Assembly (NCBI GenBank): GCA_001464455.1
Contig: LNEI01000028.1
Span: 1-64,000 of the forward strand
Source of the DNA: Acidobacteria bacterium Ga0077534
GTDB lineage: Bacteria; Acidobacteriota; Blastocatellia; Pyrinomonadales; Pyrinomonadaceae
Direction of reading: 5' to 3'
Length of the DNA stretch: 64,000 nt
The notes below the pieces were generated by a model. The model saw only the letters and a list, made by a program, of their open reading frames with translations, was not told the origin of the DNA and did no database searches. Both the position numbers and the translations under genes were made by a program. Below, one piece after another: positions 15,041 through 19,284 of the stretch (position 1 is the stretch's first letter; every line of letters begins with the position of its first letter).

Positions 15041-16158
15041 TACTTTTCCTCGTTCCTTATTATCCATCCGCCGCCGACTACTTCGTCGCCGTCGTAAAAT
15101 ATCGTCGCCTGACCCGGCGTGATCGCCCGCTGCGGCTCATCGAAAACGATGCGTGCCCGCTCGCCCGGCAGAGCGTGTATAGTCGCCTGAGCTGGATCGT
15201 GGCGATAGCGTATCTTGACCTGCGCCCTGACGGGTTCCGTTGGCGTGTCGAAGGCTATCCAGTTCACACCGCGCGCCGTAAACTCCATCGCCTCAAGCTC
15301 ATCTTCCTCGCCGACGATTATCTGATTGCGTGCCCGCTCGATCTGAATTACGTACAGCGGTTTCTCATGAGCGATGCCGAGCCCGCGACGCTGGCCGATC
15401 GTGTAGCGGTGAATTCCGGTATGTGTACCGAGCGTTTCGCCGGTCGTGCTCACGATCTCGCCGCCCTCGGGGAGTTCGTCGGAGCGGCCTTCGTGGTCGA
15501 GGTAGCGGTCGATGAACTCGCTGTACTTGCCGTCCGGCACGAAACAGATCTCCTGCGATTCCTGCTTTTCGGCGGTGTAAAGATTGGCCCCGCGAGCGAT
15601 ATCGCGAACCTCTTCCTTTTCCATTTCGCCGAGAGGAAAATATGACCTCGAAAGCTGTTCCTGATTCAGTTCCCAGAGGAAATACGTCTGGTCTTTCCAG
15701 CGGTTGGTCGAGCGAAACAGGCGGTAACGGTTCGCCGCTTCGTCATAGATCACGCGGGCGTAATGCCCGGTCGCGACCTTGTCACAGCCCAAGCTTATGG
15801 CCATCTTGTCGAGAGAGGCGAATTTCAGCCTCGAGTTGCACGCCACGCACGGGATCGGAGTTTCGCCGCTCAGGTAGCTTTCGACGAAAGGCTCGACGAC
15901 GTCGCGTTCGAAGTCCTTTTCGAGATTGAGCACGTAAAACGGAAACCCAAGCGACTCAGCCACGCGGCGTGCGTCATATACATCATCCAGCGAGCAGCAA
16001 CGCGACGGCAACGGGTCGCCGTTCTCATCGGTCGAAATCCCTCGACGCTGGTTCCAGAGCTGCATCGTAAACCCGACCAGCTCGTGCCCCTCATCCTTTA
16101 GCAGAGCCGCCGCCGCCGAACTATCGACCCCACCGCTCATTGCTACCGCGATCTTCAT
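15040..16158 (-). CDS. mnmA: tRNA-specific 2-thiouridylase MnmA
   Basis: It adds sulfur to U34 of tRNA-Lys, -Glu and -Gln, working on the same wobble base as the mnmE and mnmG products also encoded in this window. The PP-loop is [12 protein letters not shown] at the start. The catalytic pair is the Cys in [13 protein letters not shown] and the Cys in [22 protein letters not shown] and [11 protein letters not shown] are the conserved tRNA-binding strands. I chose the ATG at 16158 because the family begins [10 protein letters not shown]; 16 residues upstream in frame are not conserved. 372 residues is a normal length. Confidence 0.95.
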
Positions 16159-16236: not shown

Positions 16237-16458
16237 GTCGCCAACGGCGACAAATATTAAAGCCTAGGGTGGAATGAGCGATAGCGAATGCAACCCTAGG
16301 TAAGTCCCAATCATAGGTTCGGCTCGCTGAAGGCGAGCAATCGGCTCGCAGCAGTTTATTCGTCCCCTTCAGGGACGCCGCGATCTAACGGCAAGACCTA
16401 GGGTTCCGCTCGACGACTCGCTGCACCCTAGGCTTTAATATTTGTCGCCGTTGGCGAC
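16237..16458. repeat. 222-bp palindromic element with 35-bp perfect terminal inverted repeats
   Basis: Bases 16237-16271 and 16424-16458 are exact reverse complements over 35 bases. Each outer end is itself a hairpin (GTCGCC-AAC-GGCGAC). The interior holds further stems: CTCGC/GCGAG near 16323-16337 and CGTCCC/GGGACG near 16361-16377, plus extra CCTAGG copies. There is no open reading frame. The architecture is that of a MITE or a REPIN-like non-autonomous element; no target-site duplication is evident. It occupies most of the 503-base gap between mnmA and the ATPase gene. Confidence 0.75.
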
Positions 16459-16501
16459 GTTAACTCGAACGAGGCTCTTGATGATTCAATTTTCAAAGAT
16501 C

Positions 16502-16598
16502 TGTCCCACATGGGACACGGCGGGACGGTCGCTGGGTCGGCGTAAATTATTAATAATAAACCATTTATCGCTGACCCTCCGTCTTGTCCCACTGTCCC
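16502..16598. promoter_or_regulatory. TGTCCC repeat array and AT-rich stretch upstream of the ATPase gene
   Basis: TGTCCC-ACAT-GGGACA forms an inverted pair at 16502-16517, followed by GGGAC at 16522-16526. Two direct TGTCCC copies lie at 16585 and 16593. Between them is an AT-rich run with TAAATTATTAATAATAAA. This is either a multi-site operator or an iteron plus unwinding-element arrangement. The sites lie 65-160 bases upstream of the ATPase start. Confidence 0.4.
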
Positions 16599-16633
16599 GC
16601 ATAGATTTAAATTGTGTTTCTTTCATAAAACAC

Positions 16634-16661
16634 TTGACTATTATTGCAACGTATGTAAGAT
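16634..16661 (+). promoter_or_regulatory. Candidate sigma70 promoter of the ATPase gene
   Basis: TTGACT at 16634-16639 is followed after 16 bases by TAAGAT at 16656-16661. Transcription would begin at or just past the annotated ATG at 16662, so translation either starts leaderless or uses the in-frame ATG at 16674. No Shine-Dalgarno is visible before either codon. Confidence 0.4.
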
Positions 16662-18104
16662 ATGTCAATACATATGGACGCGCCGTTTTTGGAAAATGAG
16701 GTCGAACCTGCCGCCGAGGGCGTGCGGCTGTTTCGCGAGTGGATCGCGGACGACACGGCCGAAGCTGACCCAAAGGAGCTCGCGGGACATCTGTGGCGTG
16801 AGGGCGAGATCGCTCTGCTCGTGGGCGAACCGGGTGCGGGTAAGAGCATTCTGGCGGTCGAGATCGCCGACCGCATTTCGCAGAGTTATGAGGGCAAGCC
16901 GCTCGATTGCACGGTCGAGCCAACTAACGTCCTCTATGTCGACCTGGAAATGGACGCCCGCCAGCTCAGGCGGCGTTATTCTTATGAGCTCGATCCCGGC
17001 GAAACTCGCGAGGACTACGAATTTACCGAGCGTCTGTACCGTCTGCCCGTCAATCCGCTAAAGATGATCGCTCGTCGCACGCCGGAGGAAACGGCCGCAG
17101 CTTTTGTGACCGAGATATCGAAGGCCGCCCGCGAATGTGAGGCGAGGGTGATCGTCATCGACAGCATAACTGCTTTGAAACGTTCGTATTACGGCACGAC
17201 CGATCTGCTGCCGATCATCCGACGCATTCGCCACCTTGCGCAGCGTCGCGGGCTGTCGATCCTGATGCTTGCAACCATCCCCGGACGTGAAGCGGATAGG
17301 GCTGTTTCGCTCCGAGACCTCGGTGGGCTGCGGCTCGCGGCAAGCTGTGTCGATACGGTTTTCGCTATCGCCAAAAGCGGCGTGGTGGCAAACGAGCGCT
17401 ACATCAAGCACCTGACGTCGCGGAATTCGCAGGTAGTTTACGACGCGAACTCCGTTTTGCGGTACGAGCTGAACCTAAGCGGAAATTTCCTCGGGCTGGA
17501 ATTCAAGGGCTTCGATTGTGAATCGTGCCTGCTCAGCTCCGGTCAAAAGGTGCATACCGACGGCGAGATAGCCGAGATCATCAGCCTACGCCGTGAGGGC
17601 CGAACGATCCGCGATATCGCCCTCGAGGTCGGCCGCTCGAAAACAACGGTCGGCCGCCTGCTGCAGCGATACTACTGCTCGGGCGAACCTCACCCGGACG
17701 AGGACGACACCGAAGCGCCGAATTTTGCTGAAATTTTGATCCGTGCCGCCGAAGATCTCACGCCTGAGGAACCAGCAACCGAGCCGTTCGAGGATGCGAC
17801 CCAGGAGCCGCGGGCCGACAGCGAAGAAACGATCGAAACACCGGAAGAGAGGTTGATCCCGTACGAATTTCCGGGCTGCGAAGAGTATGAGAAAGCGCTT
17901 CGCGACCCGCGGCTTGTCGTTGAAAAGGGAATGAAAAGAAAGGATGCCAAGCTCCTAAGACGCGAACGCTCGATCATCGAAGCCGCCGCAACCACCGCCA
18001 ACCGCAGCTATAAGGAAAAAGGCCTCAAAATGCGTCTAAAAGACCACCCACGGCTGACGGCATTTCGGACGGACCATGGGATCGGGTTTGAGGATTCGGG
18101 TTAA
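16662..18104 (+). CDS. AAA/RecA-like ATPase with C-terminal HTH (RepA-like)
   Basis: Residues of about 45-280 form a RecA-fold ATPase of the AAA_25/RepA type: Walker A G55-EPGAGKS-62, NVLYVDLEMDARQLRRRY, Walker B RVIVIDSITAL and an arginine-containing LATIPGREADR loop. Around residues 310-335 is a helix-turn-helix (IRDIALEVGRSKTTVGRLLQ) of the resolvase/Hin type. The C-terminus is acidic and then basic, with no known domain. Hexameric relatives act as plasmid or phage replicative helicases, so an origin-binding helicase or a DNA-dependent regulator is plausible. It is bracketed by two palindromic repeat elements, which fits a formerly mobile segment. The start may be 16674. Confidence 0.7.
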   Translation: MSIHMDAPFLENEVEPAAEGVRLFREWIADDTAEADPKELAGHLWREGEIALLVGEPGAGKSILAVEIADRISQSYEGKPLDCTVEPTNVLYVDLEMDARQLRRRYSYELDPGETREDYEFTERLYRLPVNPLKMIARRTPEETAAAFVTEISKAARECEARVIVIDSITALKRSYYGTTDLLPIIRRIRHLAQRRGLSILMLATIPGREADRAVSLRDLGGLRLAASCVDTVFAIAKSGVVANERYIKHLTSRNSQVVYDANSVLRYELNLSGNFLGLEFKGFDCESCLLSSGQKVHTDGEIAEIISLRREGRTIRDIALEVGRSKTTVGRLLQRYYCSGEPHPDEDDTEAPNFAEILIRAAEDLTPEEPATEPFEDATQEPRADSEETIETPEERLIPYEFPGCEEYEKALRDPRLVVEKGMKRKDAKLLRRERSIIEAAATTANRSYKEKGLKMRLKDHPRLTAFRTDHGIGFEDSG

Positions 18105-18120
18105 GAGCCCAGAGAAAGAA

Positions 18121-18193
18121 CGCTCCGTAGGAGCGACCTGTCTGTAGCCGACAATGACAATAAGAAGATCGAGCGAGGCCGCTCCTACGGAGC
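18121..18193. repeat. Palindromic intergenic repeat with 14-bp inverted ends
   Basis: GCTCCGTAGGAGCG at 18122-18135 is repeated in reverse complement (CGCTCCTACGGAGC) at 18180-18193. The left arm is also a hairpin by itself (CGCTCC-GTA-GGAGCG). The right arm reaches into the stop codon of the SGNH hydrolase gene. The two convergent genes end here, so it may work as a terminator-like structure, but it lacks a T run. This is a dispersed-repeat type of sequence rather than a coding unit. Confidence 0.6.
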
Positions 18194-19284
18194 TACTTCA
18201 ACTCGCTAGCCAACCGCTCGATGATTGCATCGGCGTACATTCGCGAACCCGCGGGGTCGGGGTGGCCGATGGCGGCGACTTCGCAGAGGCGGACGGGGTA
18301 ATCGATGCCGGTTTCTTTCTTTAGTTTTGGCAGGGTCTCACGGCAATCGCGGGTTCGCTCGCGAGCTTTGGCATCTTTGACGTAGCCGCCCTTGCCCATT
18401 CGGAAGAGCCGCGAGTTCGGGGCCTCGGTAGCATGCTCGTCGGTCAGAGGCGAACGGACGAAGAATGCACGTTCGGAGCCGAGTTTTTGATTGAGTTTCG
18501 CGACGGCCTCGGCCATGCACGTATTTGAGGTTTCGAACCACAGACGCGAGCGTTCGATGGCACGTTTTCGGAGCTTGTCAAAAAACAACGGCCGCACAAG
18601 CGGATTGTTCGGTACGAACTTGAGGAATCGCGGAAAGCTGAGAGCCTCGAGCCAGGCGTTGAGCAGCTTGCTCGACTGGGAGTACTTTGTGATGACCGGA
18701 TAGTAGCCGACGACAACTATTTTCGCCTTGGGGTTTCGCGCGGCGGCAAGCTCCAGCACATCGTAGAGGTCATCGCGAAGGTGGGTTTGGATATCCCGCT
18801 TCAGCTCAGCGTCATTACCCTTCGGGTCCAGAACTTCTGACGTGCTAATGTCCGTTATGCCGCCGGTCAACATTATCAGATCAGCCGTTTTGCCTTCGCT
18901 GCGGTATTCATCTGACGCCGTCTCGATCTGTTTCGAGATGCTCGGGAAGCCGACGTTGACTTCCGGCTCGTAAAAAAAATTCTCGTCGCGGCCGATCTTT
19001 GCGTACTTTGCCGCCTCGTGAGCGTGAAACTTCAAGGTTGAGCCAGAATGTGCTTTGACCTTGACGTTAACCGACGTCGACAACGTTTTTCTCAGCCAAT
19101 CGGCCGTCAGCGAGTAAAATTTGTCTTTTTCCTCAAGCCCCTGGCCCCAGATAACCGAGTCGCCGACGACCAGAAACTCAAACGCGGTGTCCGTCTGAGC
19201 AAGCAAACGCGGCCCGCCTAGCGTCAAGCCCAAGACGGACGCCGACAACGCTTTGAGAAAAGAACGCCGGTCGAGTTTTAGCAT
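18193..19284 (-). CDS. Exported SGNH/GDSL-type hydrolase
   Basis: A Tat-like signal (LDRRSFLKALSASVLGLTLG) opens the protein at the ATG at 19284; 22 extra upstream residues in frame are discounted. The catalytic Ser block is FLVVGDSVIWGQG. A GGITDIS segment matches block III (G-x-N-like), and the terminal GHPDPAGSRMYAD supplies the Asp-x-x-His-like position as H-P-D. The fold is SGNH hydrolase; substrates in the family range from lipids to acetylated glycans. An insertion of about 60 residues (LLNAWLEALSFPRFLKFVPN) lies before the last block. Probably periplasmic. Confidence 0.75.
   Translation of the reverse strand: MLKLDRRSFLKALSASVLGLTLGGPRLLAQTDTAFEFLVVGDSVIWGQGLEEKDKFYSLTADWLRKTLSTSVNVKVKAHSGSTLKFHAHEAAKYAKIGRDENFFYEPEVNVGFPSISKQIETASDEYRSEGKTADLIMLTGGITDISTSEVLDPKGNDAELKRDIQTHLRDDLYDVLELAAARNPKAKIVVVGYYPVITKYSQSSKLLNAWLEALSFPRFLKFVPNNPLVRPLFFDKLRKRAIERSRLWFETSNTCMAEAVAKLNQKLGSERAFFVRSPLTDEHATEAPNSRLFRMGKGGYVKDAKARERTRDCRETLPKLKKETGIDYPVRLCEVAAIGHPDPAGSRMYADAIIERLASELK

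Follow-up and report, generated by a model that had tools for sequence, protein, structure and literature searches.

What is a gene for an ATPase with a helix-turn-helix (HTH) doing on its own between core genes of a bacterial chromosome, directly behind a palindromic array of TGTCCC repeats? The question is raised by a locus of the Acidobacteria bacterium Ga0077534 (contig LNEI01000028.1), of which a stretch of 64,000 nucleotides, the window, was analysed together with the window's own genome and 41 genomes of the genus (genomes are numbered G and loci L). An earlier note on this DNA had seen here either the remnant of a small replicon or mobile unit with its own initiator, or a regulator whose operator is the array. 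The comparisons below favour, at roughly even odds (about 0.5), a protein that would derive from an integrative mobilizable element (IME), bind the TGTCCC arrays, control its own gene and have gained dispersed sites, with a regulatory or organising role rather than one in replication.

The array and the ATPase

The array occupies positions 16502–16611 (+ strand), with exact TGTCCC or GGGACA sites at 16502, 16512, 16585 and 16593 and a one-base-off copy at 16522. From 16502 to 16598 it reads TGTCCCacatGGGACA-cggc-GGGACg, then an AT-rich stretch, then TGTCCCacTGTCCC; the AT-rich centre between the two halves (16543–16569) is flanked by GGGTCGGCG/CGCTGACCC, and a TTTTCAAAGA box at 16490–16499 (+) recurs near arrays at other loci. 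The TGTCCC repeats and AT-rich run first noticed upstream of the ATPase were thereby confirmed. When the 64-kb window was simulated 300 times under a first-order Markov model, four exact sites in 97 bp never occurred and three occurred in 2 runs, and the pair TGTCCC-N1-8-TGTCCC, hereafter the pair pattern, occurs once in the window with 0.05 expected. A nhmmer profile of six other arrays of the own genome, of the type called class B (window excluded), matched the window array with E=1.9e-17, and with all TGTCCC/GGGACA masked it still matched with E=4.5e-6 (16537–16605, which includes the AT-rich centre); therefore, the likeness reaches past the six-base motif.

The open reading frame (ORF) behind the array (16662–18104, +) encodes 480 aa. 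Domain search and its position in the protein tree identified a RecA-fold AAA_25 ATPase (residues 23–203, E=3.9e-22) with a C-terminal HTH at residues ~300–340 (HTH_38, residues 300–336, E=3.8e-6) and a C-terminal tail. In an AlphaFold2 model built on a 13-sequence alignment, the mean predicted local distance difference test score (pLDDT) was 72, the ATPase core and the HTH being mostly above 80 and the tail poorly predicted. The top Foldseek match of the core was RadA (8rxc, E=1.5e-11), and structural comparison gave KaiC (Z=22.4, root-mean-square deviation 2.7 Å over 217 residues) and DnaB (2q6t, Z=21.5, 4.7 Å over 231 residues), at 13–19% identity among the matches listed and covering the ATPase core only. 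A sequence search of the PDB returned a single match, with E=0.078. Domains, model and fold together bear out the initial assignment as a RecA-fold ATPase with an HTH, and the RecA-type fold is what the protein has in common with RadA, KaiC and DnaB; to our knowledge, an HTH with a dispersed palindromic array has not been described in these families. A defence system was considered and rejected, the PADLOC matches being weak only (best mad8, 5.2e-8).

By reading of the sequence, a σ70-like promoter (TTGACT-16 bp-TAAGAT) with TTGCAAC in its spacer lies at 16634–16661 (+). With this likely promoter and its TTGCAAC, the ATG at 16674 would be a likelier start than 16662.

Association of the arrays with one ATPase clade

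Members of the ATPase family were found in 28 of the 41 genomes (E<=1e-8), with 1–5 matches each. Across the 41 genomes, the number of family copies followed the number of pair-pattern matches (Spearman 0.73, p=8e-8) and not that of the reversed pattern used as control (0.05, p=0.73), in p-values that ignore shared descent. The 28 family-bearing genomes held 671 array matches (control 23) and the 13 family-free genomes 28 (control 19), where one array may yield more than one match. Moreover, GGGACA (33 against 2.8 expected) and GTTGCA (34 against 3.5) were the top enriched 6-mers upstream of 41 family genes in comparison with 365 control ORFs.

The midpoint-rooted protein tree of 72 rows, from which rows shorter than 290 aa (e.g. 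L150) were left out, resolved three groups: clade 1 (27 rows), clade 2 (29 solo genes) and an IME group of 16, composed of a Tn4555-type protein, twelve relatives from viral contigs and three members from the genus itself (L067, L068 and L069). The window protein was placed inside clade 1 with support 100/100. By a fixed rule of at least two TGTCCC/GGGACA sites upstream, arrays preceded 16 of the 27 clade-1 genes, none of the 29 clade-2 genes and 3 of the 365 control ORFs, the upstream span being 450 bp for family genes and 350 bp for control ORFs. When genes were labelled by the analyst from the site counts, all 19 labelled array-bearing fell inside clade 1 (a single change on the tree with support 100/100, a value as low being reached in 0 of 500 shuffles), a label that includes L065, L072 and L144 with two TGTCCC only, includes L091, L094, L152 and L163 with variant TGTCC sites, and omits L160, which has two sites. 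GTTGCA/TGCAAC was found upstream of genes of both clades (19/27 in clade 1 and 17/29 in clade 2), and in several family promoters GTTGCA could be seen by eye between the –35 and –10 elements.

Similarly, at the level of genomes, array matches differed between the 17 clade-1 genomes and the 24 others (p=1.9e-4, with G004 not counted in clade 1), and 14 of 18 clade-1 genomes were array-rich (G004, with a fragment only, counted) versus 3 of 23 others (G020, G026 and G031; p=6.7e-5), array-rich meaning at least 16 pair matches or at least 10 variant matches, thresholds picked after the counts, which were entered by hand. In G004, L180 (C29:10796–11191) is a C-terminal part of the family (model positions 352–465) without an ATPase-domain match, in a 265-aa frame ~2 kb from an array.

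The earlier note had tied the array to the ATPase, and this association, together with arrays of the same motif in the Tn4555-type records described below, upholds that tie. It had also named homologues in a conserved position without the repeats as an observation that would tell against it; such homologues exist in clade 2 (e.g. the syntenic L074, L078, L081 and L084) and not in the clade of the window protein. The HTH of clade-1 proteins most likely recognises the TGTCCC/GGGACA array as its DNA site, and this step taken alone, that the arrays are their binding sites, is in our judgement probable.

That the arrays belong instead to another, unlinked DNA-binding protein, with the ATPase gene as one of its targets, appears unlikely. 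It would account for the arrays found in genomes with no clade-1 gene, namely G020 (20 matches), G026 (16), G018 (10) and G031 (11 variant matches), for the 11 of 27 clade-1 genes without two TGTCCC sites within 450 bp upstream, and for arrays of the own genome near unrelated genes such as those for phosphoglucose isomerase and an S49 peptidase, but clade-1 genes have arrays upstream ~70 times as often as control ORFs over the spans given above, and arrays of the same motif accompany a distant homologue in Bacteroides, with which host regulators are unlikely to be common. Among the 11 genes, four have variant sites, L064 and L086 are cut by a contig end, L085 and L088 are preceded by GTTCC-type repeats of similar geometry (by eye), and L059, L061 and L147 showed no array upstream.

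Dispersed arrays in the own and related genomes

In the own genome, the pair pattern gave 25 matches at 16 places, the window included, versus one match of the reversed control. The 15 other places, here called orphan arrays, comprised eight of class A (two or three TGTCCC followed by GGGACA and, in most cases, by a TTTTCAAA box), six of class B, the window type, and one lone pair (L136); the five ATPase-family genes of this genome are located apart from them. Many of these arrays are found on the 5′ side of core genes, and their neighbours include genes for phosphoglucose isomerase, S21/SurE, a GidA-family protein, an S49 peptidase and ATP synthase b subunits. To the right of the array in L137, repeated units with CCCCTCCTGGACAGGAGGGG inverted repeats were observed. 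When the class-B profile was run against 66 loci (761 kb; family members and Tn4555-type records), the best matches immediately preceded the ATPases L070 (1.6e-8) and L066 (6.8e-6). Close relatives were not found in named genomes, where the class-B consensus gave 0 stretches, and a literature search found no description of the arrays or the ATPase family as a system, although this does not prove that none has been published.

Arrays of the variant sequence TGTCC[AGT] were matched 69 times in G013 (a few being simple repeats), 27 in G006, 16 in G029, 12 in G038 and 11 in G031, the reversed control of this pattern being noisy in some genomes (up to 12). The first four of these genomes all carry clade-1 genes, and variant sites were found upstream of a resident clade-1 gene in each of G006, G029, G016 and G027. 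In G031 the matches are triplets, and no family member was found in this assembly, which is 89% complete and in ~600 contigs.

Neighbouring sites of the same orientation were most often spaced by 11 bp (64 cases), followed by 12 (41), 8 (31) and 10 bp (28) in the array loci retrieved from seven genomes, a spacing near one helical turn. No covariation was found beside the palindrome arms in 13 distinct cases, and together with the helical spacing this favours protein-bound DNA over RNA. Five orphan loci of the own genome have, by reading, a promoter on the complementary strand (TTGAC(A/T)-17 or 18 bp-TATNNT) that reads into the array, as would be expected if the arrays were small RNA genes or structured leaders with TGTCCC and GGGACA as the arms of RNA stems. 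This explanation is very improbable, as the 11-bp phasing and the unequal numbers of arms fit DNA sites better, and an RNA hairpin was rejected on the lack of covariation and of any Rfam match at the array: in the window and 14 array loci, Rfam at gathering threshold gave two tRNAs and one AdoCbl-II riboswitch. The riboswitch (RF01689, 37.9 bits) lies in the own genome at L135:1294–1362 (+), beside an 802-aa ORF and ~2.6 kb from the array.

Orphan arrays of other species lie both 5′ and 3′ of genes, according to mechanical ORF calls in G032, G004 and G015; therefore, no clean regulon is visible. A regulon of housekeeping genes was accordingly rejected, since the neighbours face both ways in these three genomes and the array of L143 apparently lies between convergent genes.

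The arrays could also be selfish dispersed repeats, that is, non-autonomous elements like repetitive extragenic palindromic (REP) sequences or miniature inverted-repeat transposable elements (MITEs), with the ATPase as an accidental or active helper and no function for the host. In G027, two element types are nearly unchanged, in 9 and 11 of 20 retrieved loci, which suggests recent spread; pair matches range from 0 to 91 per genome across the 41 genomes; and only 6 of 53 site clusters in four genomes fell inside a mechanically called ORF of at least 90 aa. REP sequences and bacterial interspersed mosaic elements (BIMEs) are likewise short palindromic units between genes, uneven across species, but the arrays differ from them in being multi-site and helically phased and in recurring upstream of one protein clade. 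The explanation is nevertheless doubtful, for no transposase or target duplication was seen, with no systematic search made for them, and conservation among the own-genome arrays is mainly in the sites and boxes while the remainder has drifted. Moreover, 13 of the 21 array loci retrieved from G017 have an intergenic region in common with a retrieved array locus of G039 or G027, so that many sites are probably older than these species, and in several of the G017 pairs displayed the intergenic DNA around the array had turned over.

Relatives in mobile elements

Among 297 genomes drawn from the phylum, with the five best first-look candidates per genome scored, the family (E<=1e-40) was found in nine, all from this genus (9 of 13), and in none of the other 284. 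Relatives were found in IMG/VR contigs, where the neighbours in L234, L236 and L242 include integrase, HTH_17 or DUF6371 genes, and in eight Bacteroidales plasmid records, of which CP103131, CP103138, NZ_CP103154 and NZ_CP032820 were opened. NZ_CP103154 is annotated with the Tn4555 genes tnpA and tnpC, in CP103138 and NZ_CP032820 the genes are similarly arranged and include those for an integrase, an excisionase-type protein, DUF6371 and a mobilization protein, and the gene table of CP103131 is sparse. All four carry a TGTCCC/GGGACA array at the 3′ end of the ATPase gene, e.g. with three sites separated by a spacer from three inverted ones. Arrays were also found in the viral contigs L242 and L243, and in L242 as in the Tn4555-type elements the array adjoins the ATPase gene and the Zn-ribbon/DUF6371 gene. 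Tn4555 is reported to be present in more than ten copies in some isolates (PMC10333322).

The Tn4555-type ATPase resembles that of the window in its AAA_25 and HTH architecture (seen in the close relative in L242), in 30–31% identity over residues 37–336 and in the palindromic TGTCCC/GGGACA array at the gene. Unlike the window locus, the opened records taken jointly hold tnpA, integrase, tnpC, excisionase, DUF6371 and mobilization genes, and their array stands at the 3′ end, whereas that of the window is upstream of a gene that stands alone between core genes. Within the genus, L067 combines an integrase, the ATPase and a DUF6371 gene (E=4.7e-47), and L068 has homologues of these genes. The kinship with mobile elements that had been proposed is therefore borne out by the viral-contig and plasmid relatives, and homologues with neighbouring integrases do exist, in the Tn4555-type records, viral contigs and L067; at the window locus itself, the five neighbouring genes scanned with Pfam include none for an integrase, excisionase, primase or mobilization protein. 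Given that relatives are carried by integrative elements and that L067 and L068 are present in the genus, such elements most likely brought the family into the genus, where it multiplied as solo genes, and the window gene would be a solitary chromosomal descendant of the ATPase-HTH of Tn4555-type elements.

In G015, a 1.8-kb segment (L064:188–1994 and L065) is duplicated at 94% identity within one genome and holds only the clade-1 ATPase with ~100 bp upstream and ~45 bp downstream, which reads as a recent duplication or movement of a single gene.

Loss of the catalytic glutamate

The catalytic glutamate, at the position corresponding to E96 of RecA and read in the motif DLxL, is present in 16 of 16 IME-group proteins, 26 of 29 clade-2 proteins and 3 of 27 clade-1 proteins (clade 1 versus clade 2, p=2.6e-9). 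Clade 1 keeps the P-loop lysine (26/27) and the Walker B aspartate (27/27). We infer that hydrolysis was lost in most clade-1 members, and with the nucleotide-binding residues kept, these would be ATP-switched DNA binders rather than helicases. The window protein, which reads VDLEMD and is one of the three that keep the glutamate, sits on a long branch (1.37) and may be an intermediate. In the ATPases of L070 (G032) and L071 (G015), which have similar neighbourhoods, the P-loop is two residues shorter (FGRTGKT and FGDSGKT) and the catalytic glutamate is missing.

These residues bear on the proposal of a replication module, in which the array would be an iteron origin, the ATPase a RepA-like initiator or helicase, and the locus what remains of a small replicon or an excisable element. 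The RecA/DnaB-type fold, the AT-rich centre within inverted sites, the array that adjoins the ATPase and Zn-ribbon/DUF6371 genes in Tn4555-type elements and L242, and the glutamate kept in the window protein all agree with it. Plasmid iteron initiators (e.g. RepA/RepC of RSF1010) also have repeated sites and an AT-rich stretch beside a replication-type ATPase gene; the window system differs in that its HTH is fused to the ATPase, its sites are inverted and dispersed over the chromosome, and most of its clade is without the catalytic glutamate. We hold such a module to be improbable, in view of the glutamate lost in 24 of 27 clade-1 members, the dozens of orphan arrays per genome, ill-suited as origins, and the five scanned neighbours, which include no integrase, primase-like or mobilization gene.

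Genomic context of the window gene

Two palindromic elements lie beside the ATPase gene. The first (16237–16458, 222 bp) has arms of 42 nt at 93% identity (16237–16278/16417–16458), the outer 35 bp being a perfect inverted repeat, and recurs in the own genome, with ~23 places in all, of which 18, the window copy counted, are matched at full length. The element has inner CCTAGGGT repeats, its full-length copies are 68–81% identical to the window copy, and most of the other places are in L006–L024. The second is a 72-bp hairpin (18122–18193) with arms of 18 nt at 94% identity (18122–18139/18176–18193) and 14 perfect outer bp, for which four partial matches (26–28 bp, E<=0.001) were found in the own genome besides itself. 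Both elements exist as they had been described, with their perfect ends; because further copies of each, full or partial, lie elsewhere in the genome, they do not delimit a unit, and their role as boundaries of a mobile unit was discarded. We regard both as bystanders.

The five neighbours scanned were mnmA, a GDSL-like hydrolase, MATE, rpiB and Leu/Phe transferase genes. The core gene mnmA (15061–16158, –; NCBIfam MnmA, E=5.3e-132), divergent from the ATPase gene, is present in 39 of the 41 genomes (E<=1e-60), with full-length matches 77–88% identical. The GDSL/SGNH hydrolase-like gene (18196–19284, –; Lipase_GDSL_2, E=3.9e-7, just under the Pfam cut-off) is the second gene between mnmA and the MATE gene, and occupies the opposite strand directly downstream of the ATPase, where no Zn_ribbon_16/DUF6371 gene was found. 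Besides the ATPase family itself, no protein cluster displayed was present in more than four of the 41 loci compared for a recurrent partner.

For comparison, 30 mnmA loci were retrieved, the own one included, some of them cut by contig ends. None of the 29 others had the ATPase within 1.5 kb upstream of mnmA. A TGTCCC-type pair was near mnmA in two of them (L206, ~1 kb away, and L227, at –62/–46), L222 had four scattered TGTCCC-type sites, and three sites close together were found in none. The MATE gene was upstream of mnmA in seven of the 29, among them L231; of the six gaps measured in the others, five, with the two genes divergent, span 230–408 bp, and that in L226 spans 1,357 bp. Against the 3.4-kb gap in the window, the short gaps in sister genomes indicate that the ATPase and GDSL-like genes are extra DNA relative to those genomes. 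The two genes may or may not have arrived jointly.

Proposed role and significance

As proposed here, a clade-1 protein, bound to an array and assembled through its RecA-type domain in the ATP state, would hold the helically phased inverted sites together. The array-bound protein would control its own promoter, with GTTGCA between the –35 and –10 elements as a second operator, and the orphan arrays would be further sites of the same clade-1 proteins.

Several observations weigh against this reading. The species are related and the genome counts are thus not independent. The arrays in G020, G026, G018 and G031 and the 11 clade-1 genes already listed break the co-occurrence in both directions, and pairing array classes A and B with sub-clades gave no clean result, the patterns being too loose. 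The class-B profile of the own genome had no match in six Tn4555-type loci, and a TGTCCC array is missing at the gene in L067, in L068 and in 13 of the 15 relatives examined on viral contigs. Finally, the orphan arrays of other species occupy both sides of genes, and the window protein itself keeps the glutamate that most of its clade has lost.

The comparison suggests that a part of a mobile element may have been turned into a chromosome-wide DNA-binding system. More tentatively, and with less than even chances, this could be a domesticated system in which a mostly hydrolysis-dead, ATP-switched clade acts on tens of dispersed phased arrays, protein and site drifting together (TGTCCC, TGTCC[AG], GTTCC), as a genome organiser or global regulator of an undescribed kind. 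The locus links the replication-type ATPases of IMEs, whose role is largely unexplored, with dispersed intergenic palindromes and with a RecA-fold ATPase that would have lost catalysis while its nucleotide-binding residues remain. Provided that the protein does bind the arrays, the system would offer a testable case of the passage from a mobile-element replication part to a chromosomal DNA-binding network within one genus, and would predict the places at which such proteins bind in the Tn4555-type elements of gut Bacteroides.

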